Shown one piece after another: positions 8,656 through 26,626 of a DNA stretch of 64,000 nucleotides. The notes beneath the pieces were generated by a model. The model saw only the letters and a program-made list of their open reading frames with translations. It had not been told where the DNA came from and searched no databases. The DNA is taken from assembly GCA_015061285.1 (NCBI GenBank), contig SUWW01000007.1:62001-126000 (forward strand), in the 5' to 3' direction. The stretch's first letter is position 1; the number at the start of each line of letters is the position of its first letter. A program made the position numbers and the translations under genes. Source of the stretch: Bacteroidales bacterium. GTDB taxonomy: Bacteria; Bacteroidota; Bacteroidia; Bacteroidales; Marinilabiliaceae.

Positions 8656-9498
8656 TTACAAAATCCAATCTACTCTTCCTACAATGAACTCCTCTGGCAC
8701 AAGCCCCCAATAGCGCGAATCCTGCGAATCGACAGCATTGTCGCCACAGACGAAATAGTAGTTCTGGTCGAAGGTGTAGCTCTCTATCAAGCTATCGCCA
8801 ACGAAGAACCTACCATCTTTTTCGGTAATGGTGGTATCCATCTCCCAATTCATCAGTTTCCCGTAGAGAATGAAGTTTTGGCTGTTTAGCTCTATCTGAT
8901 CTCCTTCTTTAGGTATGTAAATAGGCCCCATATTCTCTATAGTCCAAGGGAAATCGCGGTGCTTGGGGTAGCTGCGCAAGTAGCGATATACATCAGTGTC
9001 GCTGTCGGCTTTGTGACGTAAATGGCATACGTGACGCTCCAAATCGTCTTGTGCTGCCACATTACCAAGAGGTTCGTTGCAGCCTCGCACGTGGTAGTGG
9101 CAATTGATAATCTCAAACGTGTCGCCAGGCAAAGCCACACAGCGTTTTATGAAATACTTAAGCACATCGAAACTCAGGCTGTGGCGTATTTTGTGGTTGG
9201 CACGCGGATTATTGAATACAATAATGTCGTTTCGCTTCACATTGGTGAATCCGGGCATTCGGTAAATATCGCCATGCTTTACTTCTTTGGTCACATCGAA
9301 GATGCGTGCGCCGTATGCAAGTTTATTTACGAGTACGTTGTCACCAATGGCTATAGTTGGTTCCATTGAGCCCGAAGGAATTTTGAACGTTGCACATACA
9401 AAAACTTGCAGCACATGATAGGCCACAACGAGCAAAACCGAATAGTAAAGAATATTTATGACCCAATTGAATATCTTCTTAATAATTCCTTTTTTCAT
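8656..9498 (-). CDS. lepB: Signal peptidase I, paralogue 1
   Basis: Membrane serine protease that removes signal peptides from exported proteins; 280 residues with one N-terminal membrane helix (about 15-35). The nucleophile is Ser44 in PSGSMEPT; the general base is Lys118 in KRCVALPGD; the closing GDNAVDSQDSRYWGLVP is the conserved box. A longer frame to 9609 exists but would overlap the preceding gene and adds a non-hydrophobic leader, so the start MKKGIIKKIF was chosen, 7 bp after that gene's stop. It is the last gene of NVEALA locus 1. A clear paralogue sits in the same relative place in locus 2, suggesting a dedicated peptidase for this system (inference). Confidence 0.93.
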   Translation of the reverse strand: MKKGIIKKIFNWVINILYYSVLLVVAYHVLQVFVCATFKIPSGSMEPTIAIGDNVLVNKLAYGARIFDVTKEVKHGDIYRMPGFTNVKRNDIIVFNNPRANHKIRHSLSFDVLKYFIKRCVALPGDTFEIINCHYHVRGCNEPLGNVAAQDDLERHVCHLRHKADSDTDVYRYLRSYPKHRDFPWTIENMGPIYIPKEGDQIELNSQNFILYGKLMNWEMDTTITEKDGRFFVGDSLIESYTFDQNYYFVCGDNAVDSQDSRYWGLVPEEFIVGRVDWIL

Positions 9499-9505
9499 AA
9501 ATATT

Positions 9506-11461
9506 CTAATAAAATACCTGTTTGCCGTCCTCGTAGGTGAAAATGCGCTCTTCTGTGCCCTTGGTGAGGTCGCGAAGGTGATAAAGCGTTCCTTTAGGTA
9601 CCGACTCAAATGTAAGTTCGTGCGTTATGGCTTTTTTAGAACCTACAGAAATCCACTGCATACCATTCCAATAGCACAATTCATATTCATCTCCTTTCAA
9701 AAGGTAGTTAGTATCACTTCGCGGATAGTATTCCACGCGAGTTATATACATCTCATTGCCTTTGCCAAGGTCGATACCAACATAACCGCAGATAGAGCGA
9801 GGTTTAGAAAAATATGAACCTTCATTGCCGTCCATTGCATCAAAATATGAATGCCCTCGATTCTCGTCTGGCGAAGGGAATCCAAATTTTTGTCCTAATA
9901 GAATTTGCTCTGTATTGTTTGGCGATTTTTTCCCATAGAAAATCACTTCTGCAAGATCTCCGCAAGAGCCTTTACCAATAAACCAACGTATATATCTGTA
10001 TTTTTTACTACTTGAAACTATTGTGTCGCAATAGTTAATGGGTGCTCTTTCGACTTTCAAAAGCGTCTCTTTGGTATGAAAATATTTATCGTTGCTTGCT
10101 TCTACACTACTACCAATAAGAGGTTTGGCTCTCATCTCCTGGTGTTTTGAATATGGGTATTTACGTCGTACGGTTACACTATTTGTGGCATCAGATGCTT
10201 CAAAATAATGTATTTGTCCATCTTTTTTGAGAAGAAAAGGATTGGACGCAGGAATAATTTTCCCGCCATCGTAAAATGCTGCTATGTATACGACGTCACC
10301 AATCATTTTGTTGAATTTGAACGATTTGCCGTTAAATTCTCCAAACCAAACAGGAATCCACTCTTTTCGGTCGGCAACACAAATGACTCCATATTTCTTT
10401 GTGGTATTTCGATATTCATCTTTGCACTTTATAGTTATGTCAAAAGTCGGCTTGTATTCGTCTGAGACATCTTCAAAATCAATACTCCATAGATTTGAGG
10501 GAATGTCTTCTGTAATTATGCATTGATAATTATTAGAAAACCTTTTTCTAAAGATTTTGGCTGGTTTGTATTTGATTTCAAAATCGTTGGGTGTCATTGC
10601 GTTGAACGGGAATGATTTACCATTTTGTAGCATTATAGCATTCCAGACATGACCATTACTTGTGTTTCCCCAATGAGGAACATAGTCGATAGTGCAAGGA
10701 ACGCCTAATGCTCGCATAACTTGCACTGTGTAAATAGACTTATGACGACAAGTACCACGTCGTGCCAACTCCATCTGACTAACAGTCAACTCCAAAGGGT
10801 AATTATAGAGAATCTTGCTTGTGTCAAAGCCTTGATTGTTAACAAATTCTTTCATGAAAACGTTCTTGAAACCCTCGACAGTCGTTGTGGTGTCGCGCAA
10901 AATGCCATACAGATTTTTGTATTTTGCTCTATATACTTCTGGCTTTTCAAAGTCTATCCTATATGGTAATATGTATTCGAGAAAAGTATTGAAACTTGTA
11001 TCGCAATATGTTGGCGTTGTTCGACGTGCGATAAAAGCCTCATCTATATTTTGAATGAGGAAACTCGAGCTTATCTTTTTTGTGTCAAAGTCTTTACTCA
11101 AAGAGGTAATGTTAATTGTGCCAAATTGTTTCACTAAAGAATCCCAAGTATTGGAGAGTCTTTTATCTGAATCTTCTTTTATACCTGCACGCCTCATACT
11201 ATCTAAAAACTCAAAGAAAGGCGCGTAGCGTTCTATTATTTTTCCAGAATAGCAGTATTTGTTATGCATATTGGCAATGAGCCATTTGGCAGCATACGTT
11301 TTCTCCTTATCACCTATGCTATCGTAGTGCGCAATAACATGCTCTAATTCAGCTCTGTTACCTCCAGCAGATTCCAATGCAAATTCTAACTGCGCATCAA
11401 GTTCTGATTGACACGCAGTTAGAATAAGTACGCTCAAAAAAATTAGTAGTATTTTTCTCAT
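9506..11461 (-). CDS. Transglutaminase-like lipoprotein, paralogue 1
   Basis: A 651-residue predicted lipoprotein (lipobox LTAC, Cys17). A helical N-terminal region is followed by a transglutaminase-like core: Cys238 in RGTCRHKSIY and His271 in NGHVWNAIML; the third catalytic position reads FPFNAM, with Asn where Asp is usual. The C-terminal ~150 residues resemble a discoidin/F5-8C fold (IDLGKGNEMYITRVEYYPRS). Whether it acts as protease, cross-linker or binding protein is unknown. It overlaps the upstream gene by 4 bp and is directly followed by signal peptidase I. A homologue of exactly the same length lies in locus 2, and an N-terminal remnant of a third at 24696-24791. Confidence 0.8.
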   Translation of the reverse strand: MRKILLIFLSVLILTACQSELDAQLEFALESAGGNRAELEHVIAHYDSIGDKEKTYAAKWLIANMHNKYCYSGKIIERYAPFFEFLDSMRRAGIKEDSDKRLSNTWDSLVKQFGTINITSLSKDFDTKKISSSFLIQNIDEAFIARRTTPTYCDTSFNTFLEYILPYRIDFEKPEVYRAKYKNLYGILRDTTTTVEGFKNVFMKEFVNNQGFDTSKILYNYPLELTVSQMELARRGTCRHKSIYTVQVMRALGVPCTIDYVPHWGNTSNGHVWNAIMLQNGKSFPFNAMTPNDFEIKYKPAKIFRKRFSNNYQCIITEDIPSNLWSIDFEDVSDEYKPTFDITIKCKDEYRNTTKKYGVICVADRKEWIPVWFGEFNGKSFKFNKMIGDVVYIAAFYDGGKIIPASNPFLLKKDGQIHYFEASDATNSVTVRRKYPYSKHQEMRAKPLIGSSVEASNDKYFHTKETLLKVERAPINYCDTIVSSSKKYRYIRWFIGKGSCGDLAEVIFYGKKSPNNTEQILLGQKFGFPSPDENRGHSYFDAMDGNEGSYFSKPRSICGYVGIDLGKGNEMYITRVEYYPRSDTNYLLKGDEYELCYWNGMQWISVGSKKAITHELTFESVPKGTLYHLRDLTKGTEERIFTYEDGKQVFY

Positions 11462-12276
11462 TGTTCTACTGCAGAACCTTCTATGGTAAGTGTAATAGGT
11501 TCGTTTTGATGGTTTGTATGAACATACACCTCACGCATAAACGTTGATGCGCTTTCTGCAGCATAGCAGACTTCAACTTTCAGCGAATCTGTTGGTAACA
11601 CTTCGGATTGATAGCATTTTGCCGTTGTGCATTCACATGATGTCGTTATTGAATCAATACGCCATACCGCATCACTTTGGTTGGCTATTTTGAACGACAC
11701 TGTTTGTGGCTCTCGCCAATTGAATGTACCTAAATTTTGTGCATAGGTTGAAGATTCGGAAACCGCTTCGACACCCATAAAATCCATATATAGCTTAGCA
11801 ATATTGGAGCTATAAATGGGATTGCCGATAGCCACGATATGGTTCGCCGAATCGAGGAGAAACGTACGAAACATATCGTTTGATGGGAGTTCGTTTTTTT
11901 GTATAAAACGCCCTGCGGTGTCGGCTATCACAAAAAACAAAGATGCCTCTGCATGTCTGAAATTATGTTTTATCCGACCAATGCTTTTGTTGTGAACAAC
12001 AAAGACAACTTGTAGCGTTCCACTCAAGTCGCAACCAATGTTGTTCAGAAACTTTTGCCATTTGCGAATTTGCATTTGACATTCAGTGCATTGTGTAGAA
12101 TCTATATACGTCAAAATAGAATATGTACTACTTGGAACATTCCAATCTCCGTAATCTATTCTTTGACCATACATATTGGCAACGACATCTTTGACTTCTT
12201 TCTTACATAAAGAATCACACGAAGAAAAAAAAGTAGTTAGCGCAAGCAAGCCGCACACTATATTAGTTTTATTCAT
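11458..12276 (-). CDS. Thioredoxin-like / DUF1573 lipoprotein
   Basis: A 272-residue predicted lipoprotein (signal ending FFSSC). Residues about 50-170 look like a thioredoxin-type fold with TQCTECQMQ as a variant CxxC. The last ~95 residues match DUF1573: a TTSCECTTAKC core, then LPTDSLKVEVCY and HTNHQNEPITLTIEGSA. DUF1573 proteins in Bacteroidota are surface or periplasmic and often accompany propeller lipoproteins. It overlaps the propeller gene by 8 bp and the transglutaminase-like gene by 4 bp, so translation is coupled. Redox or scaffold role is inferred only. Confidence 0.75.
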   Translation of the reverse strand: MNKTNIVCGLLALTTFFSSCDSLCKKEVKDVVANMYGQRIDYGDWNVPSSTYSILTYIDSTQCTECQMQIRKWQKFLNNIGCDLSGTLQVVFVVHNKSIGRIKHNFRHAEASLFFVIADTAGRFIQKNELPSNDMFRTFLLDSANHIVAIGNPIYSSNIAKLYMDFMGVEAVSESSTYAQNLGTFNWREPQTVSFKIANQSDAVWRIDSITTSCECTTAKCYQSEVLPTDSLKVEVCYAAESASTFMREVYVHTNHQNEPITLTIEGSAVEQ

Positions 12277-13324
12277 TTACATACTTTTCAATATCATATA
12301 CATGAATCATTGCTTCTGGCTCTTTAGTTAGCGCATACAACTTTTTCGTATTTTTAGAATAATACAATTGTTCAATATCTACGTCAGGTTGCAAGCGCCA
12401 CACTAAATCTCCACTCCATGTATATAATAAGATTTCTTTGATATTTGGAGCTTTCTTACGTTCATCCTTGGGCTGCCCACTATATAGTAATGCCACATAT
12501 TTATCGTTAATAGTAGTTGAAGAAAAAACGTGTGCAACATCAGATGGTCTCGTGTTTATGTACCCCATTTCATCTACATTTTTTACATGGCACAGATTCT
12601 CTTTCACATCTTTCTTAACTATTTGCAACTTTTCGTCCGCCAACGAACAAAACAACATTATTCCTTCGTGTCTATAAGCAGCCACCACCCTTTTGTTGTC
12701 GGGCGAAACCGCCAAACTTGATGTTCCCCATATTGACGATTGAGAAATAGTAGGATACTTGCTCAGCTCTGATTCTTGAGGATATGGAATAGATGAAATC
12801 ACATTACCTACCGTATCGCAATACATAAACAGACAAGAATCGTTGTACGTTGACGTTATATATCTATAATTATCAACAATTTGCGTTGACATAGCCATCA
12901 ACATATATGGATATTGGGCGTAATACTTTATCTGAGCAGATTTGTTTGCCGTATTAATGCCTATTTTATAAACATTTTTACTGCTCATATCTATAATATA
13001 AGGAGTGTCGTTATAACATGTTAAGCACGAGAAACTTGATATCTCTTGAGGTCCCTGTCCAACTGTTATTGCTTTGAAACTAATACTATCTCGCTGTAAT
13101 AGGAGAAAAGAAAACTCTTTTTCGTCATTTATGTTTTGCGCTACCAAAACATCGTTTGCAATCACAAATCGAGAAATGTTGAAAATATCAAAGTGTTCAA
13201 GGTTAATTGTCGATTCTGATACTATTGTATCTGTTTGAACTTTTGCACCTTTACCGTCTTGTGTTAATTGGCAAGAGGTCGCAATCATGGAGGTTAAAAC
13301 ACCCCAAAGAATGTATTTATTCAT
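12269..13324 (-). CDS. 6-bladed beta-propeller lipoprotein (BF3164/TolB-like)
   Basis: A 351-residue predicted lipoprotein (lipobox ATSC). The rest is beta-rich, with a VGQGPQEISSFSCLTCYNDT stretch and blade-like repeats such as ISSIPYPQESELSKYP and LAVSPDNKRVVAAYRHEGI, as in the BF3164-type TolB-like 6-bladed propellers of Bacteroidales. These commonly neighbour NVEALA genes. It begins about 75 bp after the NVEALA stop, behind a strong hairpin, so it may be expressed at a lower level than the peptide. No enzymatic motif is evident; probably a binding or scaffold protein on the cell surface. Confidence 0.75.
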   Translation of the reverse strand: MNKYILWGVLTSMIATSCQLTQDGKGAKVQTDTIVSESTINLEHFDIFNISRFVIANDVLVAQNINDEKEFSFLLLQRDSISFKAITVGQGPQEISSFSCLTCYNDTPYIIDMSSKNVYKIGINTANKSAQIKYYAQYPYMLMAMSTQIVDNYRYITSTYNDSCLFMYCDTVGNVISSIPYPQESELSKYPTISQSSIWGTSSLAVSPDNKRVVAAYRHEGIMLFCSLADEKLQIVKKDVKENLCHVKNVDEMGYINTRPSDVAHVFSSTTINDKYVALLYSGQPKDERKKAPNIKEILLYTWSGDLVWRLQPDVDIEQLYYSKNTKKLYALTKEPEAMIHVYDIEKYVNE

Positions 13325-13354: not shown

Positions 13355-13386
13355 GTATAAGTCGGCAATAATTTACCGACTTATAC
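13355..13386 (-). terminator. Hairpin between NVEALA gene and propeller gene
   Basis: Perfect 11-bp stem GTATAAGTCGG / CCGACTTATAC with a 10-nt loop, followed on the minus strand by TTTTC. It sits directly after the NVEALA stop and before the rest of the operon, so it may be a partial terminator or a 3' stabiliser of the peptide mRNA. Locus 2 has an equivalent hairpin of different sequence. Confidence 0.7.
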
Positions 13387-13400: not shown

Positions 13401-13622
13401 TTAATCTCTGAAGCCAAATCGTTCGCCTTCGTACCAACACGGACAATATGTGTAATTAGGGCACGAACTTTTTACTGCAGGTGGTACTTCAGCAGATCCC
13501 AAAGCTTCAATATTTTCGAGTTGCAAATCAGAAAGCGTTTCTTGGCTTTTGTTCGCATTATACGTTGTAATTCCCGCAATGGCTGCTGCTGCAGCAACAG
13601 CTAAAGTTTTATAAATTTTCAT
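13401..13622 (-). CDS. NVEALA-family secreted peptide, Cys-rich (locus 1)
   Basis: A 73-residue small exported protein. Residues 1-20 (MKIYKTLAVAAAAAIAGITT) resemble the hydrophobic leader of NVEALA-domain proteins, and LQLENIEALGSAE is the family's NVEALA motif region with Ile for Val and Gly for the last Ala. The C-terminus is short and Cys/aromatic-rich (SSCPNYTYCPCWYEGERF), with three Cys. A longer frame to 13679 exists, but the extra residues overlap a conserved 5' hairpin and the chosen ATG matches the locus-2 start. First gene of the operon. NVEALA proteins have no established function that I know of; a processed peptide or surface component is plausible. Confidence 0.75.
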   Translation of the reverse strand: MKIYKTLAVAAAAAIAGITTYNANKSQETLSDLQLENIEALGSAEVPPAVKSSCPNYTYCPCWYEGERFGFRD

Positions 13623-13662
13623 TATTATCTTGTTTATTACTCCAACAAAAAAAATTACACTA

Positions 13663-13689
13663 ACTGCCACTTGGAGCATGTATGGCAGT
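13663..13689 (-). ncRNA. Conserved 5'-UTR hairpin upstream of NVEALA gene 1
   Basis: Perfect 7-bp stem ACTGCCA / TGGCAGT, about 40 nt upstream of the start codon. Locus 2 has a hairpin in the same position with stem TGTCACA / TGTGACA. At the aligned position TGCCA/TGGCA versus TGTCA/TGACA, a G-C pair is replaced by A-U, a compensatory change that supports an RNA structure. Confidence 0.55.
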
Positions 13690-13700
13690 AAAGCGTTTTT

Positions 13701-13877
13701 TCAATAAAAAAGTTGATTGTCTGCACTGCCAAGAACTGGCTCGCGCCGCCACTTTGCCGTAGCAAAAGGCATGGAAATTGTATATGTTTGTCGTGCACCT
13801 CCTTTCTTTTTAGGTTGTGTTATGTAGTTGGCTTGTTCAATTACCAAGGCGAAGAAGTCAACTACATTTTCTATTTG
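13701..13877 (-). CDS. Conserved short reading frame in shared leader, copy 1 (no standard start)
   Basis: Open frame of 58 codons bounded by TAA, with no ATG, GTG or usable TTG at its beginning. Translation reads IENVVDFFALVIEQANYITQ, then PKKKGGARQTY and PFATAKWRREPVLGS. Copies at 21671-21832 and 24192-24362 keep the NVVDFFA...EQANY...QPK...RQT core; copy 2 also keeps PFA-AKWRRE. Copies 1 and 2 differ by separate small indels that sum to three bases, so the frame is preserved. I do not recognise a named family. It may be a decayed or start-less coding element, a leader peptide using a non-standard start, or an RNA element that happens to be open. Confidence 0.45.
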   Translation of the reverse strand, partial: QIENVVDFFALVIEQANYITQPKKKGGARQTYTISMPFATAKWRREPVLGSADNQLFY

Positions 13878-13891
13878 TTAGTTATACTGTC

Positions 13892-13966
13892 ATCACCAAA
13901 CAAAACGAACACAACGAAGCGTAAACGCTCTAAAATCTTCGCTTTTATTGGTTTTATATTGGTGAT
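13892..13966 (-). repeat. Long inverted repeat of shared leader, copy 1
   Basis: Arms ATCACCAA and TTGGTGAT about 60 nt apart, enclosing a TAGAGCG block and inner complementary pieces. Copies 2 and 3 have inverted arms in the same place but with different sequences (ATCACCGAAT/ATTCGGTGAT; TAGCAA/TTGCTA), so pairing is kept while sequence changes. Likely an RNA stem in the 5' leader, downstream of the promoter at 14083-14113. Confidence 0.55.
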
Positions 13967-14082
13967 ATTTATTGCATACTGAGGATATTTCCCAAGTATT
14001 ACAGTCAGTTACAATCGTCTTCATTTTCATGTTTGCCATTAACATATATTAGTTACAGGGTTATTCTTTGTTAATAACATTG

Positions 14083-14239: not shown

Positions 14240-14265
14240 TGTTAGATATGGATGGTTATTTGGAT
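14196..14265. repeat. 70-bp dispersed repeat, copy B
   Basis: Differs from 8495-8564 at 4 of 70 positions. It overlaps the 3' end of the O-antigen-ligase-like gene and supplies that gene's last two codons and stop, which suggests the repeat inserted or recombined at the gene's end. Confidence 0.85.
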
Positions 14266-15833
14266 TTTCTCACTATCTCTCGCATCTCCTCTATCGCTTC
14301 CGATTCTGTCTTTGGTTTTTTGTGTAGCACACTGTCGGCTGCGGCTTGGCGCTTCGCATCGTTGTAGAATGCTGGCTCGCTGTAGAGTTTATATAGTAGG
14401 AAGTATGGATATACTCTATTAGGTAGTCGATTTGCCGATTTCAAAAACATCTGTTCTGCTTCGGCATACTTTCCTAAACTCTGAAGATTCTTGCCGCGAA
14501 TGTTAAGAATCATAGGGTCGCCAGAAATTTTCTGTGCTTCACATAGCACACTGTCAGACGCTGCGTATTTCTGCTCTTTATGCAGCGCATGTCCCCATTC
14601 GTAAAGGAATTGCGCATCGTTGTTGAGGGCTATCTTGGGGTAGAGAGCCGCTACCGCAGAGTATGATTTGCTAACGTAGTAGATTCGTGCTTTAGCATAT
14701 TCGGTCTGTTTGCTGACCTCTTTTTCCAAATTGGGTACTGACAGCATAAGAAAAGCAGATATTGTTAATAATGCTAAAGTAACAATAAATTTTGTTACGC
14801 GTCTATTGGAGTGTATACATAATAGCATAATAATTATGCTCGTTGCGACTATTACTGGTATTTTGAAAGGATAGGAGGCAAAGGCAAATATTGCTATTGA
14901 TACTATTGCGCCAACTTCGCCTATACGCCTATTGCGTATGCCGAGCCAAATTGTAGCTATACTTATAGCTATGAGCCCTAAAGCCATAGGTATACCATGC
15001 ACAAAGGCGATGTTGATATATTCGTTGAATGCGCAATCGGGCACACCTGCCACCCAACGCTCTGCCTCTGTGCCGCCTTGCGCGAAATATTGCTCTTGTA
15101 GTTCTGCGTATGTAGGCATAAACGAACCGTATCCTTTTATTGGCTCTTCAATAATGCCAAGCGCAGCAATTTTCCATATTAGCAATCGCCCCGATGCCGA
15201 ATCGGCATTTATGTGCCATAGTGCGATGCCTCCACCCAAGAGGATTATTGCAGACGCTCCATAAACCATTTTCCTATTTATTCCGACGGTCCACTTGCGA
15301 AATACATCACGTTTGAGGAAGAAAAATACTACACCACAGCTGATTGCGGCTGCTATGTATGCCGTGCGGCTGGCAGTGGAGGGTAGTATGCATACAATTA
15401 GAAATGCTGCCGCCCCGAAAACAAACCGCAACCATTTGTTGTGCGTCTCTATGTATGCTCCCAATGCTACTGGCAGCGCCATTGCTAAGAATCCTGCCAA
15501 CGGTCCTGGATTGTAGAATGTTCCCGTTATTTTGAATAAGTCGTGGTTAGAACTGCAAATATTTATTGTTTGCAAAAATGCCAATATACATTCTGCTATG
15601 GCAACCACCGATACACTTACCGTTACCGCCGTTCGCGTGCTTTGCGAATGCAACCATAGTCCTAACCCGACTACTATCGATGCCACCGCACCCCTCATTG
15701 CTACACGCAGCCACTGCTCCGCCAAATTCTGACCAATTGAAACGTCAGCCAAGAAGAATGCCGAGCTGAGAAGCCATATAGTTGCTGCACAGACGGATAA
15801 GAACACAAATGCTTTATTTCGCAAAATATTCAT
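14256..15833 (-). CDS. O-antigen-ligase-like membrane protein with C-terminal TPR
   Basis: A 525-residue polytopic membrane protein. About ten hydrophobic segments fill residues 1-370, with FYNPGPLAGFLAMALPVALG as the region typical of the Wzy_C/O-antigen ligase superfamily. The last ~150 residues are soluble TPR-like helices (FLYEWGHALHKEQKYAASDS, LGKYAEAEQMFLKSANRLP). Proteins of this fold attach or polymerise surface glycans; some act on exported proteins. It follows signal peptidase paralogue 2 with no real gap, so it belongs to locus 2; the ATG at 15833 avoids the overlap that the upstream ATG (15845) would make. Its stop lies in the 70-bp repeat. Locus 1 has no equivalent. Confidence 0.75.
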   Translation of the reverse strand: MNILRNKAFVFLSVCAATIWLLSSAFFLADVSIGQNLAEQWLRVAMRGAVASIVVGLGLWLHSQSTRTAVTVSVSVVAIAECILAFLQTINICSSNHDLFKITGTFYNPGPLAGFLAMALPVALGAYIETHNKWLRFVFGAAAFLIVCILPSTASRTAYIAAAISCGVVFFFLKRDVFRKWTVGINRKMVYGASAIILLGGGIALWHINADSASGRLLIWKIAALGIIEEPIKGYGSFMPTYAELQEQYFAQGGTEAERWVAGVPDCAFNEYINIAFVHGIPMALGLIAISIATIWLGIRNRRIGEVGAIVSIAIFAFASYPFKIPVIVATSIIIMLLCIHSNRRVTKFIVTLALLTISAFLMLSVPNLEKEVSKQTEYAKARIYYVSKSYSAVAALYPKIALNNDAQFLYEWGHALHKEQKYAASDSVLCEAQKISGDPMILNIRGKNLQSLGKYAEAEQMFLKSANRLPNRVYPYFLLYKLYSEPAFYNDAKRQAAADSVLHKKPKTESEAIEEMREIVRKSK

Positions 15834-19811: not shown

Positions 19812-21047
19812 TTATAGTTCAACTTTATATAGAACTAACAACACATTATCTTCTTCCTTGTGCCTTTGAATTTTTGCTATGTCTTCTTTTGATAGCAATT
19901 TGCTATCCTTACAATATTCTGAATATGCGAAATTGGATATTGTGGTTATGAAATAATCTTTATAAGTTGAGAACGGAAGATCTATCAAAGGAAATTGGTT
20001 AATGTCTATATTTTTACGAAATCCACCAGTTATTTCCCCTGTTTTCATATTTCGATATGCTAAAAAATCACCTTTTGTAAAATGAGACAAACGAAACGCT
20101 TGAATGTTACCTGCTTCTCGGTAATCTCCAATAAAGAAGCAATAGTCAGAATTATTTACATTTCCATAAAAATCAGCAAATGAATTGCTTTTGTCTAATA
20201 TGCTTTGCGGAACCTTTTTGTCAGAATAGTATAGGACATAACTAGCAGACAATTTATTGTCGGATAGCGAGAAAATCGTATCGTTAAAAGGTTTTGGTAT
20301 AAGTAAATGTTCTTCATTAACAGATAGATAATGACGACTTGCTAGCCCTATAAAATTGGATCCTGGAAGGCCATAATTTATCATACTATAAGTTGTATCT
20401 GTTTGGAAAAACATATTATCAGAAATATCTTGCATTTGTGGATTTACGGAATTAAGCGTCTCAAATGCATAATGTCCATTGAATATTTTGAAATCGTGAG
20501 TTCCAAATGGGGTTATTTTTTCATGTAAATAATTACCATCCTTATCATAGTAGTACATGCATCTATTTTGACATACAACAAGTTCATTTGTGTTGTGGTC
20601 AAAGTCGATTGCAGCAACCATATATAATTCGCCCGGACCATTGCCATTTTTTATTCTATGGATAAATTTCCCTTCACGGTCAAATATTATTACGCCTCCT
20701 TGCAAATAGTCATCCTCTACATATATTCTTGAATCTGTTATGATAATATTATAAATATTTCCTACAAGACTTTCGTTTGTGGATTCCAATTCTATGATAT
20801 TCATTTTTTTGATTATACTTCCATACTCTATAGCGCTATCAAATAGATCGTTGAGATCTATTTTTATCGTTTTGGTACGGTCTACCGGCAAAAATGCGGA
20901 TGCGCTAGCATTTAGTGTCTCAATTTGTTTTTGAGAATATCCATAAGTCTCGTCTTGATTAGATGTTTTAGAATTACAATTTGTAAAAACAGAGATACTA
21001 ACAATTACTAAAGCATACAGAAAAGTTTGTTTAAGAATGAGTTTCAT
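19812..21047 (-). CDS. 6-bladed beta-propeller lipoprotein (locus 2)
   Basis: 411 residues from MKLILKQTFLYALVIV, with a lipobox-like VFTNC; the frame extends upstream to 21092, but those codons lie in the hairpin and are unlikely to be used. The mature protein has propeller-type strand repeats: GGVIIFDREGKFIHRIKNGN, GPGELYMVAAIDFD, MYYYDKDGNYLHEKI. This matches the Bacteroidales 6-bladed propeller lipoproteins related to BF3164. It follows the NVEALA-like gene across a strong hairpin, as in locus 1. Confidence 0.75.
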   Translation of the reverse strand: MKLILKQTFLYALVIVSISVFTNCNSKTSNQDETYGYSQKQIETLNASASAFLPVDRTKTIKIDLNDLFDSAIEYGSIIKKMNIIELESTNESLVGNIYNIIITDSRIYVEDDYLQGGVIIFDREGKFIHRIKNGNGPGELYMVAAIDFDHNTNELVVCQNRCMYYYDKDGNYLHEKITPFGTHDFKIFNGHYAFETLNSVNPQMQDISDNMFFQTDTTYSMINYGLPGSNFIGLASRHYLSVNEEHLLIPKPFNDTIFSLSDNKLSASYVLYYSDKKVPQSILDKSNSFADFYGNVNNSDYCFFIGDYREAGNIQAFRLSHFTKGDFLAYRNMKTGEITGGFRKNIDINQFPLIDLPFSTYKDYFITTISNFAYSEYCKDSKLLSKEDIAKIQRHKEEDNVLLVLYKVEL

Positions 21048-21078: not shown

Positions 21079-21117
21079 AAACCACGACTCACACGAAACT
21101 CTTGCGAGTCGTGGTTT
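21079..21117 (-). terminator. Hairpin between NVEALA-like gene 2 and propeller gene
   Basis: Perfect 12-bp stem AAACCACGACTC / GAGTCGTGGTTT with a 15-nt loop. Same position as the 13355-13386 hairpin but unrelated in sequence. Few U residues follow, so a processing or stability element is as likely as a terminator. Confidence 0.65.
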
Positions 21118-21140: not shown

Positions 21141-21596
21141 CTAGAAGCAGAAATCAAAGCCTACTGTACACATGACTTGAAATTGTCCAGAATTAAAATT
21201 ATAGGAACCTTGCACCCCAAAATTGAAATTTCCATAAGAAGTGTTATAATTCTGATTGTAATTACCAGAAATTGACACTCCTTGGTTCTTGTTGTAATCC
21301 ATGCCAATACTATTCCCATTCCCAGAATTATAGGAGGCGCCTATTCCCCAGTTCTGAGAATTTTCATAGTTGCCTCGGATGACAACTGATTGCTTGTTCT
21401 TTTGTTGATTACTCAAAGAAGAAGGATATCCAAAGCTATTATTCCCAAACTGATAATCGGTTTGTGCCACAGCAACATGTTCTACATCGCCAATCATCAA
21501 ATCGGAATTTACAGAAGTGTCTTGGGCATTCCATACATTAATTCCCGCTATAGCAGCCGCAGCTGCTATGGCTAATGTTTTATGAATATTTTTCAT
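21141..21596 (-). CDS. Long NVEALA-like secreted protein with Gly/Asn/Tyr-rich tail (locus 2)
   Basis: 151 residues. The leader MKNIHKTLAIAAAAAIAGIN is very close to that of NVEALA peptide 1, and SDLMIGDVEHVAVAQ occupies the NVEALA-motif position. The rest differs: a tail of short alternating strands rich in Gly, Asn, Gln, Ser and Tyr (GIGASYNSGNGNSIGMDYNK, VSISGNYNQNYNTSYGNF), ending CTVGFDFCF with two Cys. The pattern suggests a small beta-barrel or an amyloid-like fibre subunit; neither is shown. First gene of locus 2, with the same leader elements upstream as locus 1. Confidence 0.65.
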   Translation of the reverse strand: MKNIHKTLAIAAAAAIAGINVWNAQDTSVNSDLMIGDVEHVAVAQTDYQFGNNSFGYPSSLSNQQKNKQSVVIRGNYENSQNWGIGASYNSGNGNSIGMDYNKNQGVSISGNYNQNYNTSYGNFNFGVQGSYNFNSGQFQVMCTVGFDFCF

Positions 21597-21635
21597 TTTA
21601 TGTTCTATTCATTTGCTCAAAAAAATCTCACTCAT

Positions 21636-21657
21636 TGTCACATTGAGCGGTGTGACA
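21636..21657 (-). ncRNA. Conserved 5'-UTR hairpin upstream of NVEALA-like gene 2
   Basis: Perfect 7-bp stem TGTCACA / TGTGACA with an 8-nt loop, 40 nt upstream of the start. Counterpart of 13663-13689 with a compensatory base-pair change. Confidence 0.55.
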
Positions 21658-21670
21658 GAAAAGCGTTTTT

Positions 21671-21832
21671 TCAAAAAAAATGATTGCACTGCTGAAAAAC
21701 CAGCTCGCGCCGCCATTTTGCCATAGCAAAAGGCTCAGAATTTACGTATGTTTGCCGTTGCCTCCTTTCTTTAGGTTGGTTTGTGTAGTTGGCTTGTTCA
21801 GTTACCAAGGCGAAGAAGTCAACTACATTTTT
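21671..21832 (-). CDS. Conserved short reading frame in shared leader, copy 2
   Basis: 53 open codons after a TAG, again without a standard start: KNVVDFFALVTEQANYTNQP, then RQRQTYVNSEPFAMAKWRRE and LVFQQCNHFF. Aligned with copy 1, several differences are synonymous in this frame (TAT/TAC, TCC/TCT, AAG/AAA, CGA/CGG). It ends 74 bp before the NVEALA-like start. The opposite strand is also open, so coding status is not settled. Confidence 0.45.
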   Translation of the reverse strand, partial: KNVVDFFALVTEQANYTNQPKERRQRQTYVNSEPFAMAKWRRELVFQQCNHFF

Positions 21833-21850
21833 CTATTTAGTTATATTGCT

Positions 21851-21927
21851 ATCACCGAATAAAACAGTATATCACGAATCTTGTACGCTCTAAAAAAGTA
21901 TCGCTTTTATTAGTCTAATTCGGTGAT
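21851..21927 (-). repeat. Long inverted repeat of shared leader, copy 2
   Basis: Arms ATCACCGAAT / ATTCGGTGAT (10 bp perfect) with a 57-nt interior that includes the TAGAGCG and AAAAGCGA blocks seen in copy 1. Relative to copy 1, an A-U pair in the arm is replaced by G-C. No good TTTG/TAnnTTTG promoter was found between it and the preceding gene. Confidence 0.55.
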
Positions 21928-21996
21928 GTTTTTTATTGTATAAAAGAGATTGTCTTTATACTTCGGTTCCTCTTTTCTTTATGTAACATTTTTATT

Positions 21997-22308
21997 TCAA
22001 AACGTTCCATCCGTATTGTCCTCTTCTGGTGAAACGCCTACTGTTGGGATGTATATCGGTTGATCGGCGATTGCATTTATTTCCCCATAATATAATAATT
22101 CGCCATCCTCAGTGCTTATCGTTAATCTGTATCGGCCAGAATAGAAAAATGTTACAACAAATCCATCTTTGACAATCTCTATATTGCCATTATAGAGGTG
22201 TAGCCCTTTGTTGCCTGTAGATACTTTTTGTGTTGATATTACTATTTCTTTAGCACTTGTCATTAATGTAATTGCAATGAGCAAAAACAGAGATGTGATT
22301 CTTTTCAT
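21997..22308 (-). CDS. Small exported protein, DUF3244-like
   Basis: 103 residues from MKRITSLFLLIAITLMTSA, a clear signal peptide; the frame extends to 22434, but those residues are not signal-like. The mature ~80 residues form a short beta sandwich pattern (NGNIEIVKDGFVVTFFYSGR, YRLTISTEDGELLYYGEI) like the DUF3244 family of Bacteroidales. A TATTTTTG sequence about 25 bp upstream may be its own -7 element, although no TTTG lies at normal spacing. It follows the regulator gene on the same strand. Function unknown. Confidence 0.55.
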   Translation of the reverse strand: MKRITSLFLLIAITLMTSAKEIVISTQKVSTGNKGLHLYNGNIEIVKDGFVVTFFYSGRYRLTISTEDGELLYYGEINAIADQPIYIPTVGVSPEEDNTDGTF

Positions 22309-22484
22309 TTTCGTTTTTGTTATTTGGTTTTGAGCAAAAATACCCCTGTTGTGCTGTAGAATACGAATCAAAAGTTGGTGGTTTTTTACAAAGTTTTCAA
22401 CAGGATAAAACACTGTGTTTTTAGCATGGTGCATTTTGGTTACAAGTAAAACTCGTAAAAAAGTTGGTGATTGGCCATTTCAAA

Positions 22485-24149
22485 TTATAGGCGTTTTCGT
22501 TGTCTTTCTACAATATGCCAGAGATCGTTCCATTGCATGTTTTCGTTTCCCTCTTGTTTGGCTATTTGTTCACGAATTAGGCGTTGACGTGTGCGTATGG
22601 TATTAACCGATTTGAACAAACATTCCGCTATTGTTATTGCAGTAAAGCCTACTCGCGTCATTTCACATACGGCAATGTCGTATGAGGTAAGGTTGCTGTA
22701 TCTACTCAACATAGCATTCGACATCATAGGGTAGATATACTCTATTTGCTCTATTATAAATGCGTATTTGTCATCGGCTTTTGCATCTTCATTTAGTTTT
22801 AGCAAACCTCGCGATATATTTTCGCAGATGTTCTTTCGCAGGATTTTATCCTCTGTGGTTTGTGCTTCTTCTTTTTGTGAATTCGCCAACACCTCAAGTT
22901 GCTTGCTTATATCTCTGTTTTTTAGCGTCTCTTCTATCAATTGCCTCATTATTTGCGCCTTGTGAGCTTCCAGCTCTGCGTTTCTGTGGCTTATATTGTC
23001 CCTTTGCCATTTAAGCCTTATTGTCACCAGAGACAAAACCAAGAATATTATAATTACGCTTACGATGAAATTGAAAAATCTCTGAACAATAGCATCTCTT
23101 GACGCAGTGAGCTCTCTATGTTCGTTCAACATACGGTCGATATTTTCAACTTCTAATTTGTTGCTATTTATTAGCACACTGTCCGACATAGCATCGTATC
23201 TGTAGAAATATGATAACTGTTGTTCATCATTTCTACGCTGCATATTGGCAATTATTCTCGATCGAGTGTAAGACAATTCTTCATAATAATTGCGAGGTGT
23301 AATAGTGTCGAGTATTGCATTGCAAGCCTTATAATCCCCCATTCCCGCTAGAAATGCAGCCTTATCAATCATTTCAGAAACAATATCATCATATTCTTCC
23401 GATGCATACATTATGCTCGTATCGCTATATGCAAGAGCCAAATCCCACTTCCCTTCTTTTACGTATGCGCCAGAAAGCAACATATAACTCAAAGAAGACG
23501 GAATAACTCTTTCGTCTGAAATACACGCAATCATAGAATCAGGCTCGTGCAATGAATAGTAGCATTCAGCTATACGAATTAGTGTAGACGATATGTATAT
23601 GGGATTATTTATTCGCTCAGCTATTTGTAAAGCTTCTTTCAATCTGCCTACTGCCAACCGCATAGAATATCGTTGTATATGCGCAATTGCTTCACGTTCG
23701 CGCGCCAAAAACGAATATCTATCGCATAGTATGGTGTCGAAAAGCGCCTGAGCTTGCTTTTCTATGTACAACGTAGAACTATAATCGCGATTTACGAAAG
23801 CCACCTTGCCCATATAATAGTGCGCCAAGCCAGCATGGTAATAGTCTTCTTTGTTGTCGCGGTAATATAAATAAGCACCTACACCAAGAGAATCGACAAG
23901 TGGTACATCACAGCGGTCTTGCGCTTGTAGCAAAAGTGTGCAGTAGAGCGCGTAAGTGTCGTCATCAACTTCAAATAAGTTAAGTTTGATAGGTTCAAGG
24001 AGGGCATAAGCCTCAGAGTCGCGATTACATATCAATAGAGAATCGGCTTCGGCTAGCACTGGGCGCAATTGTCTATCTTTTAGGTTGCATGCCGATATTA
24101 TGCTCACAAATATTCCGATGTACAGAATTTTGAATATAGATGATTTCAT
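22485..24149 (-). CDS. Envelope-anchored TPR sensor with C-terminal HTH (DUF6377-type regulator)
   Basis: 554 residues. An N-terminal signal ends in a lipobox-like IISAC. Residues about 30-330 are TPR-like helical pairs (LAHYYMGKVAFVNRDYSS, RIAECYYSLHEPDSMI). One membrane helix (about 358-378, FNFIVSVIIIFLVLSLV) is followed by a coiled coil and a C-terminal HTH resembling LuxR/GerE (about 490-525, SYDIAVCEMTRVGFTAITIA then ECLFKSVNTIRTRQ). This is the layout of the Bacteroidota TPR-membrane-HTH regulators: the TPR part outside the cytoplasm, the HTH inside. The shared leader of the two NVEALA operons also precedes this gene, so it probably controls them and itself (inference). Confidence 0.75.
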   Translation of the reverse strand: MKSSIFKILYIGIFVSIISACNLKDRQLRPVLAEADSLLICNRDSEAYALLEPIKLNLFEVDDDTYALYCTLLLQAQDRCDVPLVDSLGVGAYLYYRDNKEDYYHAGLAHYYMGKVAFVNRDYSSTLYIEKQAQALFDTILCDRYSFLAREREAIAHIQRYSMRLAVGRLKEALQIAERINNPIYISSTLIRIAECYYSLHEPDSMIACISDERVIPSSLSYMLLSGAYVKEGKWDLALAYSDTSIMYASEEYDDIVSEMIDKAAFLAGMGDYKACNAILDTITPRNYYEELSYTRSRIIANMQRRNDEQQLSYFYRYDAMSDSVLINSNKLEVENIDRMLNEHRELTASRDAIVQRFFNFIVSVIIIFLVLSLVTIRLKWQRDNISHRNAELEAHKAQIMRQLIEETLKNRDISKQLEVLANSQKEEAQTTEDKILRKNICENISRGLLKLNEDAKADDKYAFIIEQIEYIYPMMSNAMLSRYSNLTSYDIAVCEMTRVGFTAITIAECLFKSVNTIRTRQRLIREQIAKQEGNENMQWNDLWHIVERQRKRL

Positions 24150-24191: not shown

Positions 24192-24362
24192 TCAAGAAGC
24201 CAACAAGTTATTTATATAGCCCATCCTAATAAAAAACGGATGCAAAGAATGGTAATTTGATAATGTTTGTCGTGCACCTACTTTCTTTTTAGGTTGTGTT
24301 ATGTAGTTGGCTTGTTCAACTTGCTGGGCGAAGAAGTCAACTACATTTTCTATTATTCTTTT
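24192..24362 (-). CDS. Conserved short reading frame in shared leader, copy 3
   Basis: 56 open codons, again with no standard start. It keeps ENVVDFFAQQVEQANYITQP and KKKVGARQT, then diverges (LSNYHSLHPFFIRMGYINN); the AKWRRE segment is lost. It ends 42 bp before the regulator start codon. The nucleotide block is nearly identical to copy 1 through the RQT codons. Confidence 0.4.
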   Translation of the reverse strand, partial: KRIIENVVDFFAQQVEQANYITQPKKKVGARQTLSNYHSLHPFFIRMGYINNLLAS

Positions 24363-24369
24363 TTATACG

Positions 24370-24421
24370 TAGCAAAACGAAAAAATAAAACGCTCTAAGT
24401 TCTAAGTACATCGTATTGCTA
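24370..24421 (-). repeat. Inverted repeat of shared leader, copy 3
   Basis: Arms TAGCAA / TTGCTA, shorter interior (40 nt) than the other two copies, with the shared TAGAGCGTTTT block inside. Arm sequence is unrelated to copies 1 and 2, while position and inverted pairing are kept. Confidence 0.4.
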
Positions 24422-24641: not shown

Positions 24642-24649
24642 CAAATGTA
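24642..24649 (-). promoter_or_regulatory. Possible -7 element for regulator transcript
   Basis: TACATTTG on the minus strand, preceded by an A-tract as in the locus-1 promoter, but no TTTG at 19-21 nt. It is placed to transcribe leader copy 3 and the regulator. Confidence 0.4.
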
Positions 24650-24695
24650 TATTTTTTTTTTTTTCTTGATTACGCAAGAAAGATGTGGAGAAATT

Positions 24696-24791
24696 TTACA
24701 AAGCATTAAGCATATACTCCAAATGCCTATCAATCTCCGATTGGCAAGCAGTTAGCATAAGTACTATTAGCGCAAAAAGTAGTTTTTGCAT
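24696..24791 (-). pseudogene. N-terminal remnant of a third transglutaminase-like lipoprotein
   Basis: A 31-codon frame, MQKLLFALIVLMLTACQSEI followed by DRHLEYMLNAL and a stop. It aligns with the first 31 residues of the 651-residue locus-1 lipoprotein (LTACQSELDAQLEFALES), keeping the lipobox Cys. The rest of the gene, and any signal peptidase after it, is missing; the shared leader begins instead. It lies just after the CxxC lipoprotein gene, the expected slot. This indicates locus 3 is a truncated copy of the module, although a short lipopeptide could still be made. Confidence 0.7.
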
Positions 24792-24836
24792 GGGATTATA
24801 TTTTAGCAGTTGTAGGGTATGTATTTATTGGGGCTT

Positions 24837-25337
24837 TTACTTGAGAATCATACCCTTATTGGGTTTATTAGTAAAGTCGTGAAGATACCCTTTATAGATT
24901 ACAGACTCATCTTTGGTTATTATAATATCGTAAATACCTGTACATTGCATGAATTTGTCTAACACCGATTTATTAGCATCGAAAACTATGTGTTGCCTTT
25001 GTGGCTCGTCAATTTTGAACTTTGTCATATAATGTTCAATCAAGATGAAATCACTTGCGCCACAAGCAATAGTATAGAGAGAGTCGTAGTTGCATTTCTT
25101 TACCTCTTCCACAAAATTGAAATAGTCACCTATACACGAAGAACACGATGCGTCGAACAAGAAACAAATATTAGTGCCACTGCTAATGTTTAACGTTTTA
25201 GAAACATCTTTAGACAATGGCTCGCGAATTTGCTTCTCTTGAATCGCCTTATTCATCAGTTCACTCAATGAAGGCTTAGAACAAGACGAGAAAAGCAGAA
25301 CAAATACAACTAATACAACTAATACAACGTGTTTCAT
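24837..25337 (-). CDS. Thioredoxin-like CSSC lipoprotein (locus 3)
   Basis: 166-residue predicted lipoprotein (signal ending LFSSC). ICFLFDASCSSCIGDYFNFV places a CxxC motif after a beta strand, as in thioredoxin-like folds, and YDIIITKDESVIYKGYLHD resembles the closing strands. Its start overlaps the propeller stop by 4 bp. Counterpart of the thiol genes of loci 1 and 2. Partners unknown. Confidence 0.65.
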   Translation of the reverse strand: MKHVVLVVLVVFVLLFSSCSKPSLSELMNKAIQEKQIREPLSKDVSKTLNISSGTNICFLFDASCSSCIGDYFNFVEEVKKCNYDSLYTIACGASDFILIEHYMTKFKIDEPQRQHIVFDANKSVLDKFMQCTGIYDIIITKDESVIYKGYLHDFTNKPNKGMILK

Positions 25338-26422
25338 TTGAGCGTACTTTTATAAAGTCCTAATTCTCCATCTTCGTCATAGCCGTTTACGTATAATGTC
25401 TTTGTCTCTTCGCAATATGAAGGGGCAAACAATCTGCCATACGTATTAGGAATTTTATATCTGTTTATAAAATCACCTTTAGAATTAAATCTCCATATTT
25501 CCTGATAATCTACATAGTATTGTGCTTCATTTTTGCGGTAATCAGGTTTCGCAACTTTGTAAGTTCTACTATTGATGAAAAAAATATTGTTTTCTGAAAT
25601 GGTAGATGATTCGAAGAAAAAAGAAATTTTTCCATCTTTCTCTCGCAAATTTCCCCACTCATCTCTCAATTCAAATTCTACATCATTTTCTTCAGGACCT
25701 ACATAAGTTTTAATTTTGTTCAAATTCTTATCAAGCATATCGATTTGTGGTCGTCTTGTAAAAGCCATCATATATATATTTTCTTTAGATGAGTACACCA
25801 ATTGACCTCCTGTTACTCCACCTGCAAAAAATTTTTCGTCCATTGCTGTATTATCACAAATACCTGTTTTGACATTAATATGAATATATTCTGGAATAGT
25901 TGGATCTGTTGTCATTCCTGCTAAATATCCAATATTGTATGCTGTTATTGATGTGTCATTTGTGAATGCATACCCCCTATTTATGCTTGTGCTAATAGTG
26001 TTTATTTGGGGATGGTAGTCATATTTCAATGTGGCAATAGAGTCAATGTTCATTTTTACGATTTTTTGTGAAACAGGGTCGTTTATAAGTAAATAGTTGT
26101 CTTGTAATTGTGTGGAAATGCCGATGAATTCTTCTGGGCCCTCACCTTTTTTGTAGTATTCTGCAATTATTTCACCCGATAAGTTTGTAACTGTCAAGAA
26201 ATAAGGATTAGGATGCGACGAATTGATGGATATAATGAGATTTTTGCGCACAAAACTATATGCATCTAAAATATTCTCGTTCAACTCAACCTTTTCGAGA
26301 TATAGAGTATCCAAGCGAGGCATATTGTCTTCGGTAAGGAAAATAGTCTTGTCAGATGTTTGTTGCTCTTTTTGGCAGCCAATGATTGCTATTAGTAGCA
26401 AAGCAAATAGTAATTTCTTCAT
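25334..26422 (-). CDS. 6-bladed beta-propeller lipoprotein (locus 3)
   Basis: 362 residues from MKKLLFALLLIAIIGCQKEQ, a standard lipoprotein signal; the frame runs up to 26524, but those codons are AT-rich and lack a signal. Propeller-like features include VTNLSGEIIAEYYKKGEGPE followed by EFIGISTQLQDNYLL, and IWRFNSKGDFINRYKIP near the end. The GEGPEEF motif matches the GxGPxE motif of the two other propeller lipoproteins here (GQGPQEI, GNGPGEL). First gene of locus 3; no NVEALA gene precedes it. Confidence 0.75.
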   Translation of the reverse strand: MKKLLFALLLIAIIGCQKEQQTSDKTIFLTEDNMPRLDTLYLEKVELNENILDAYSFVRKNLIISINSSHPNPYFLTVTNLSGEIIAEYYKKGEGPEEFIGISTQLQDNYLLINDPVSQKIVKMNIDSIATLKYDYHPQINTISTSINRGYAFTNDTSITAYNIGYLAGMTTDPTIPEYIHINVKTGICDNTAMDEKFFAGGVTGGQLVYSSKENIYMMAFTRRPQIDMLDKNLNKIKTYVGPEENDVEFELRDEWGNLREKDGKISFFFESSTISENNIFFINSRTYKVAKPDYRKNEAQYYVDYQEIWRFNSKGDFINRYKIPNTYGRLFAPSYCEETKTLYVNGYDEDGELGLYKSTLK

Positions 26423-26488
26423 GTTTTTTCGTTTGATTGTTATGTTTATGTAGATAGTAATGTTATAGGTAGCAATTGTTAATAGATG

Positions 26489-26496
26489 CAAATATA
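26489..26496 (-). promoter_or_regulatory. Possible -7 element for locus 3
   Basis: TATATTTG on the minus strand, 66 bp upstream of the propeller start; no matching TTTG at normal spacing. Moderate match only. Confidence 0.35.
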
Positions 26497-26626
26497 TGTT
26501 GTTTTTTTGGTGTGTAATAGGCATAATTAAGAAAATAGTAGAGTATAGTAAAAGAGGTGTTGTTAGTCAAAAACAAGAGTTATCAGTACGAAATACGTTA
26601 TGCCTTTGTAATTTCGCTTTTTGTAA

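Follow-up and report, generated by a model that had tools for sequence, protein, structure and literature searches.

Layout of the gene run

A 64,000-nucleotide stretch of the genome of a Bacteroidales bacterium (Marinilabiliaceae; assembly GCA_015061285.1, contig SUWW01000007.1, forward-strand positions 62,001–126,000), hereafter the window, begins with a long run of envelope genes at positions 1–26524, nearly all on the − strand, in which one gene module is found in three related copies. Copy 1 consists, in order, of an NVEALA gene, a stem-loop, a propeller lipoprotein, a thiol/DUF1573 lipoprotein, a 651-aa transglutaminase-like lipoprotein (TGL) and a signal peptidase I (LepB); directly downstream of it (1–8421) stand genes for an RND adaptor, a pump and an outer-membrane channel, followed by a second pump gene that the window edge truncates. 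Copy 2 runs from an NVEALA-like gene through a stem-loop, propeller, small unknown gene, thiol lipoprotein, TGL and signal peptidase I to a Wzy_C/TPR protein (hereafter Wzy), and copy 3 comprises a propeller-type gene, the gene of a thiol lipoprotein and a TGL stub of 31 codons. In a search of the organism's entire genome, only these two TGLs and one NVEALA protein recognized at the Pfam level turned up. As read from sequence, many gut Bacteroidales look to carry a cluster of this kind, seemingly built to cut, modify and export variable, cysteine-rich peptides. The features of the run, in window coordinates, are:

1–2751, − strand: second RND pump gene of the module (module RND profile); the window start cuts the gene, and its start codon is unsure
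2819–4306, − strand: outer-membrane efflux channel (OEP/TolC type), 495 aa (PF02321, 98.5 bits)
4303–7338, − strand: RND pump (AcrB/ACR_tran), 1011 aa (PF00873, 508 bits)
7342–8421, − strand: RND periplasmic adaptor (HlyD type), 359 aa (PF16576/PF13437)
8491–8564, − strand: 74-nt, 93% identical copy of the Wzy gene end (10 nt) plus 64 nt beyond it
8656–9498, − strand: signal peptidase I copy 1 (LepB1), 280 aa (PF10502, 115 bits), with SGSMEPT and KRCVALPGD catalytic motifs; member of the module clade
9506–11461, − strand: transglutaminase-like lipoprotein TGL1, 651 aa, lipobox C17 (Transglut_core, 25.2 bits vs. cut-off 23)
11458–12276, − strand: thiol lipoprotein copy 1, 272 aa, with CxxC (CTEC) and C-terminal DUF1573 (PF07610, 69 bits)
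12269–13324, − strand: 6-bladed propeller lipoprotein copy 1 (TolB_like), 351 aa (PF15869, 48.3 bits)
13355–13386, − strand: intercistronic stem-loop in the NVEALA-1/propeller spacer (read from the sequence; spacer folding z −5.9)
13401–13622, − strand: NVEALA-1 precursor, 73 aa, NIEALG followed by a Cys-rich tail (PF14055, 35.4 bits vs. cut-off 27)
13640–13990, − strand: leader 5′ of NVEALA-1, with hairpin (13824–13865), short open reading frame (ORF; by eye), second stem-loop and U run
14256–15833, − strand: O-antigen-ligase-like Wzy_C protein with C-terminal TPR-like part, 525 aa (PF04932, 49.4 bits; weak TPR matches)
15835–16656, − strand: signal peptidase I copy 2 (LepB2), 273 aa (PF10502, 101 bits)
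16678–18633, − strand: transglutaminase-like lipoprotein TGL2, 651 aa (32% identical to TGL1, E 1e-66)
18769–19359, − strand: thioredoxin-like lipoprotein copy 2 (CGNC), 196 aa (a profile of 20 chosen relatives matches ResA)
19367–19798, − strand: small secreted-type protein of unknown family, 143 aa, between the copy-2 propeller and thiol genes
19812–21047, − strand: 6-bladed propeller lipoprotein copy 2 (DUF5128), 411 aa (PF17170, 90 bits)
21079–21117, − strand: intercistronic stem-loop in the NVEALA-2/propeller spacer (read from the sequence; spacer folding z −5.7)
21141–21596, − strand: NVEALA-2 (NVEALA-like precursor), 151 aa (E 3e-7 to NVEALA-1)
21597–21950, − strand: leader 5′ of NVEALA-2, with hairpin (21785–21826)
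22485–24149, − strand: membrane TPR-HTH regulator, 554 aa (assigned by reading the sequence; Pfam matches weak)
24254–24354, − strand: third leader-hairpin copy, upstream of the regulator, with hairpin (24303–24344)
about 24696–24791, − strand: 31-codon TGL N-terminal stub (read from the sequence)
24837–25337, − strand: thioredoxin-like lipoprotein copy 3 (CSSC), 166 aa (module profile)
25334–26524, − strand: propeller-type lipoprotein copy 3, 396-aa ORF with its likely start inside (module profile)

An earlier note on this DNA, made from the letters alone, had described three related copies, and all the genes that it named are present on the − strand according to ORFs, Pfam matches and module profiles; its account of the third locus as a propeller, a thiol gene and an N-terminal TGL stub is also correct. 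The common gene order that it gave for loci 1 and 2 holds apart from the extra gene at 19367–19798 in copy 2. Its NVEALA and transglutaminase labels exceed the Pfam cut-offs in copy 1; the copy-2 proteins are homologous to those of copy 1, with no Transglut_core match for TGL2 in the Pfam scan and no Pfam NVEALA match for NVEALA-2 at E 0.1, so that the latter stays below the 27 bits of PF14055. Three more proteins, the propeller of copy 3 and the thiol lipoproteins of copies 2 and 3, likewise had no Pfam match over cut-off and were named via module profiles. An alternative 92-aa ORF for NVEALA-1, reaching 13679, is probably an over-long call. What the note's picture of the module lacked were Wzy, the RND genes, the leader/core structure of the NVEALA proteins and the pairing of peptide and propeller.

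Recurrence of the module in other genomes

A scan of named genomes with the TGL alignment returned 304 relatives, the best 80 of which were kept, yielding 79 loci; many of the contigs are short, and some loci share a genome (L093/L098, L066/L068). Record titles of the TGL relatives include Bacteroides, Parabacteroides, Paraprevotella, Tannerella, Prevotella, Alistipes, Maribacter, Pedobacter, and Dawidia. Locus genes were labelled by profiles derived from the proteins of the window together with their relatives. The ORFs came from a simple longest-ORF rule, under which small genes can escape; the TGL label was lost at one of the 79 loci, and no NVEALA ORF is seen in L233. Twenty stretches of 20 kb, taken at round coordinates from four genomes of the family, served as controls. 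Wzy was found at 43 of the 79 loci vs. 1 of the 20 controls, propeller at 36 vs. 0, thiol lipoprotein at 34 vs. 1, NVEALA at 27 vs. 0, LepB at 26 vs. 0, RND at 18 vs. 1, adaptor at 16 vs. 1, and channel at 14 vs. 1; TGL, too, was absent from all 20 control stretches. A further 20 loci from the family (L125–L144), hand-picked from the TGL matches, contained Wzy (14), adaptor (12), propeller (12), LepB (10), RND (10), thiol lipoprotein (10), channel (8), and NVEALA (5).

Of 149 genomes from the order, 6 had a match to PF14055 at E 1e-4; one of these is the genome of the window, and the other five provided an NVEALA-anchored set of 12 regions, from which L226 was excluded for its 19-kb near-identical overlap with L049. 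LepB was present in six, Wzy in five and TGL in four of these regions. One of them, L227, has no DNA in common with the TGL loci but adjoins L226 in the same genome; without it the counts are 5/11 for LepB, 4/11 for Wzy, and 4/11 for TGL, with a propeller next to NVEALA in 11/12 cases. The link of NVEALA to LepB, Wzy and TGL thus holds in this set as well. The genes that the earlier note named are repeatedly found together in other genomes, more often than chance would give, as it had expected of a real module.

The genes might nonetheless form a loose envelope neighborhood, in which lipoprotein, efflux and glycan genes have gathered without a common pathway. Gene order does vary, NVEALA is absent from 67 of 99 TGL loci, and NVEALA–propeller pairs stand alone in places, for example in G058, where NVEALA–propeller(–thiol) sets do so at two places. 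The counts relative to controls, the separate clade of module LepBs, and the conserved stem-loop and pairing described below all speak against such a loose gathering, which we regard as very unlikely.

In five of the 99 TGL loci (L083, L066, L076, L069, L106), all without NVEALA, we found relatives of proteins annotated as “bacteriocin fulvocin C-related,” with Cys-rich C-terminal ends. Near these relatives in L083 and L066 are ResA-like proteins that score under the model cut-off. The window also holds two small proteins of unknown family beside module genes (19367–19798 and 21997–22434), neither of which has relatives among the proteins of the 79 TGL loci.

NVEALA proteins, their propellers and the signal peptidase

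The NVEALA proteins combine a conserved N-terminus, composed of a hydrophobic segment and then L..L.NVEALA, with a hypervariable, Cys-rich tail of ∼40 residues. Cys makes up 209 of 2502 tail residues (8.4%), compared with 26 of 2506 in the leaders (1.0%) and a background of 3219 of 277758 (1.2%). At least two Cys are present in all 53 motif-positive tails and an even number in 40, these counts omitting 10 of the 63 NVEALA-labelled proteins, which do not match the motif pattern. Across 41 NVEALA–propeller pairs, tail identity was 0.23, vs. 0.21 for shuffled tails, and leader identity was 0.35. Eight pairs had leaders with an identity of 0.7 or more: in seven of them tail and propeller were at or near baseline, and in the eighth, L105, both were ∼0.84 identical. 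The DNA of two paralogues in L107 is 90–100% identical in the 200 nt that lead up to the motif and 24–30% identical beyond it. Paralogues with similar leaders and divergent tails point to a leader that is conserved and a core that is swapped or evolves fast, an arrangement typical of precursors of ribosomally synthesized and post-translationally modified peptides (RiPPs) and of bacteriocins; the NVEALA proteins look like such leader–core precursors. By eye, a subfamily of tails lies near C-x-G-x-G-S-L/I-x-C (L227, L228, L098, L070, L071, L073, and others), and its occurrence in several Bacteroides/Parabacteroides loci suggests that some cores are kept across species.

The end of the NVEALA motif resembles a signal peptidase I site in that it fits the −3/−1 rule. 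In 62 aligned proteins, the last motif position (−1) is A in 46, S in 7, G in 5, T in 3, and M in 1, and the third-last (−3) is A in 50, V in 5, L in 2, and S, M, H, T, and I in 1 each. Among the column pairs compared, this one fitted the −3/−1 rule best (59/62, with A-x-A in 37), followed by an overlapping pair inside the motif (51/62, 5 A-x-A) and a pair in the hydrophobic part (43/59, 10 A-x-A). From a reading of the sequences, the site lies ∼20 residues past the hydrophobic segment, farther than in a usual signal peptide, a distance that would fit a dedicated enzyme; the protein may also be cut closer to its hydrophobic part.

A candidate for that enzyme is the module LepB, whose window copies score 114.7 and 97.3 bits against TIGR02227 (cut-off 47). 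Twenty-seven of 35 module LepBs form a single 100/100 clade without any of the other LepBs in the tree, some of which may have TGL neighbors at a distance. The catalytic Lys is present in 27/27 clade members and the Ser in 26/27 (the remaining one lacks its start), both being retained in the window copies; a more restrictive text search for the Ser motif matched 10/40. The window genome has two ordinary signal peptidases, adjacent to each other on another contig (G000:C18:60443–62490), and the possibility that the extra lepB genes are the only ones of the cell can be dismissed. We infer from motif and clade that the module LepB would cut at NVEALA.

TGL could instead be the protease, acting in the manner of LapG, a transglutaminase-like periplasmic enzyme that cuts di-alanine sites (PMC6890996). 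The invariant Cys and His of TGL, its transglutaminase-like fold, and the annotation of one matched structure, 3isr, as a putative cysteine protease are in keeping with this idea. The NVEALA site, however, obeys the −3/−1 rule, with A, S, G, or T at −1 in 61/62 proteins, and is of the form A-x-A, not the A-A cut by LapG, and a dedicated LepB clade with intact catalytic residues is available; we consider cleavage by TGL rather unlikely.

On the same strand, NVEALA is followed immediately by a propeller gene in 51 of 61 cases, in 13 of 14 in the NVEALA-anchored set (L226 excluded), and in 8 of 10 at other NVEALA places of the family genomes. The intervening spacers (36, of 35–250 nt) have a mean folding z, relative to shuffled DNA, of −4.2, with 86% below −2, vs. 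a mean of −0.5 and 14% below −2 for 159 control spacers after other module genes (Mann–Whitney p 2e-13). The hairpin pointed out between NVEALA and propeller in the window is therefore general among such pairs. Peptide operons are familiar examples in which the precursor gene is followed by a stem-loop, letting more precursor than downstream message form. The structure model of the copy-1 propeller (pLDDT 84.9) matched WD/NHL propellers; identification as a peptidylglycine amidating lyase (PAL) was rejected, PAL appearing only at rank 38 among general propellers. Co-evolution of tail and propeller was also considered and rejected as evidence: a Mantel r of 0.25 (0/2000 permutations) fell to 0.04 (328/2000) after three members were dropped so that no two propellers were ≥0.40 identical.

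A candidate export route, its alternatives and known systems

The remaining module proteins offer possible modifying and exporting functions. TGL C238 and H271 are invariant in 47 aligned sequences, the protein matches a transglutaminase-like fold, and 42 of the 47 members carry a C-terminal F5/8-type (carbohydrate-binding-like) domain. The thiol class has CxxC in 49/68 members vs. 66/565, and a profile of 20 chosen members matches ResA in the PDB (E 1e-5). The window Wzy protein weakly resembles PEP_O_lig_1, the PEP-CTERM/exosortase O-ligase family TIGR03097, at 16.7 bits, far under the cut-off of 188. Wzy is followed by genes for adaptor, RND pump and channel in three genomes of the same genus and by adaptor and RND genes in L095. 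Four loci of the three same-genus genomes (L125, L127, L128, L134) carry Wzy where the window has the 74-nt copy of the Wzy gene end, and a fourth same-genus relative (G057, locus L140) is without Wzy at that place, like the window. Together, the 74-nt copy and the same-genus Wzy genes suggest that copy 1 once had the order TGL, LepB, Wzy, RND and probably lost a Wzy gene between LepB1 and the adaptor. At L140 (G057:C67), TGL is broken, and LepB, propellers and RND genes remain. MacB-type and adaptor genes, without NVEALA, are present in TGL loci L126, L129, L130, and L051; L126 and L051 also have ABC ATPase genes, L126 and L129 have Yip1-domain genes, and L051 has RND-type genes in addition.

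We consider it somewhat probable, at slightly better than an even chance, that the cluster makes and secretes small cysteine-rich peptides that are exported by Sec, matured in the periplasm and pumped out, perhaps in bacteriocin-like fashion. The NVEALA precursor would cross the inner membrane by Sec, and the module signal peptidase would cut the A-x-A site at the end of NVEALA. Thioredoxin-like lipoproteins would set the disulfides of the tail, and TGL, through its Cys–His pair, and the Wzy protein would modify the peptide. A tripartite pump, of RND type or, in some TGL loci, MacB type, would carry it across the outer membrane, and the paired propeller would bind it, as a holder or for self-protection. 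The most likely purpose would be to antagonize other cells or to signal to them, more like a bacteriocin than a structural component; antagonism is favored over a structural role because of the diversity of the tails, the pairing with propellers and the fulvocin-like replacements. We infer cut, disulfides, TGL/Wzy modification, export, and propeller binding from gene content and protein features, export being the least supported step. A more specific and ambitious version, in which LepB cutting, thioredoxin folding, TGL cross-linking, Wzy glycosylation, propeller immunity, and RND/MacB export make up a wholly extracytoplasmic peptide-modification pathway for a diversified arsenal, is unlikely to hold in full, although the chemistry of the module may be new.

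Several observations weigh against the peptide-export reading. Eight of the 35 module LepBs fall outside the clade, and 15 of 32 NVEALA loci lack a clade LepB (contigs are often cut). In G056 (98% complete), NVEALA–propeller pairs occur with no TGL match and a single LepB match at E 1e-10, that is, without TGL or an extra LepB; the maturation set is thus not obligatory, and the site may be cut there by the ordinary peptidase, or not at all. RND was found in 1 of the 12 NVEALA-anchored regions (L225), vs. 1 of 20 controls, so the pump link is not borne out in that set, several regions of which are cut by contig ends; the RND association is seen from the TGL side alone (18/79 TGL loci). Foldseek matched TGL1 weakly (probability about 0.1–0.5) and the third residue of the transglutaminase triad is not invariant in the 47 aligned sequences, which makes any chemistry proposed for TGL tentative. 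The thiol class is mixed, some members being DUF1573 proteins without CxxC. The window's NVEALA-2 deviates from the general pattern, with a related leader and a long Gly/Asn-rich tail with two Cys, and the co-variation of tails and propellers hangs on the few close pairs whose removal was described above.

Some of the same facts would suit the earlier note's view of NVEALA as a surface protein, cross-linked or anchored by TGL and processed by the module LepB, with the pump serving something else. Judged by sequence, the partners are mostly lipoproteins; TGL combines its transglutaminase-like fold, in most members, with the F5/8-type domain, and RND is not enriched around NVEALA. The tails, however, are short, Cys-rich and hypervariable, unlike structural proteins, and the adaptor–RND–channel genes after Wzy in the same genus, adaptor and RND in L095, and the MacB-type exporters of other TGL loci also argue against this alternative, which we judge unlikely.

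Alternatively, the tails might be pheromones, with the membrane TPR-HTH proteins or the paired propellers as receptors. The TPR-HTH gene adjoins the module and has its leader element, and pairing of peptide and partner together with a variable specificity region would be expected of such signals. Relatives of the TPR-HTH protein, however, were found at 11 of 79 loci with a profile that had drifted, and the strict first search gave four proteins, the window's own included. We assign this signalling alternative a rather low probability. The TPR-HTH protein scores 41.5 bits against NF053779 (cut-off 940), and its standing as a general module member was rejected, the profile having swelled from 4 to 53 matches over successive rounds so that its counts are not trusted.

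The leader element itself is a hairpin-bearing sequence common to the upstream regions of NVEALA-1, NVEALA-2 and, in shorter form, the TPR-HTH gene, the aligned parts of the other copies being 78% and 91% identical to copy 1. Both NVEALA leaders also contain a second stem-loop, a U run and what looks by eye like a short ORF; the second stems differ in sequence, yet both pair. In sequence terms the element looks like a shared regulatory leader. It had no Rfam family at the gathering threshold, and beyond the three window copies none was found in 71 family genomes or in the other loci searched. A widespread RNA was rejected: a 27-nt match in G053 was taken as chance, as was a fourth hairpin match (L016, two mismatches), which falls within a 737-aa ORF interpreted as a SusC-type gene.

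The earlier note had proposed an exported small protein with its own maturation set and its own regulator. That interpretation is supported in part: export and maturation fit the motif, tail and clade evidence, the set being absent in G056, and a TPR-HTH gene does lie beside the module, its link to the other genes being weak. Cross-linking and a surface location, which the note also put forward, stay conjectural.

Returning to secreted, periplasm-matured peptides, a known precedent is the enterotoxin STII, which undergoes Sec export, signal cleavage and periplasmic disulfide formation before leaving through MacAB-TolC (PMC5985334). A two-step route of this kind is proposed for the module; the module differs in its dedicated signal peptidase, TGL, Wzy, propeller partners, and hypervariable tails, and the window pump is of RND, not MacB, type. 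With LapG-type (BTLCP) proteins, TGL shares a periplasmic transglutaminase-like fold, a catalytic Cys and a possible peptidase role; compared by description, it differs as a 651-aa lipoprotein with an F5/8-type domain that stands beside peptides, not giant adhesins. NVEALA-1 belongs to PF14055 by score, motif and signal segment, but the Pfam row returned with the match gives a name alone, without function, partner, or cut site. The fulvocin C-related family NF033852 resembles the NVEALA proteins in its place in TGL loci (with Wzy in 5/5 and the thiol class in 4/5) and its Cys-rich C-terminal ends; its members are longer lipoproteins without the NVEALA motif, 0/5 occur in NVEALA loci, and “bacteriocin” is a database label.

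RiPP and bacteriocin clusters combine a conserved leader, a variable core, modifying enzymes, an exporter, and a stem-loop after the precursor gene. The module likewise has a leader/core precursor, possible modifying enzymes and exporter, and a stem-loop after the precursor gene, but its leader is a membrane/signal segment and the partners, lipoproteins and membrane proteins, are situated outside the cytoplasm. The Pfam/NCBIfam matches of the 16 window proteins scanned included neither a GG-leader protease nor an enzyme known for RiPP tailoring, and the module was not filed as a RiPP cluster.

Searches aimed at such a system in an open-access library, which mostly lacks subscription papers, turned up no published account of it. 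In the accessible part of PMC10434189, the iron-response tables of B. thetaiotaomicron list BT0662 (O-antigen ligase family), BT0664 (6-bladed propeller), BT0667 (signal peptidase I), and BT0669 (RND adaptor) as single entries that are not joined. Judging by these annotations, not by DNA, the BT0662–BT0669 genes are probably a copy of the module. If the peptide-export reading is true, many gut Bacteroidales, probably including B. thetaiotaomicron, would make diversified disulfide peptides and export them by a so far undescribed route. The orphan families NVEALA, TolB_like/DUF5128 propellers, thiol-DUF1573 lipoproteins, extra signal peptidases, and Wzy-TPR proteins would gain a role, and a direct test would be possible in a genetically tractable commensal.

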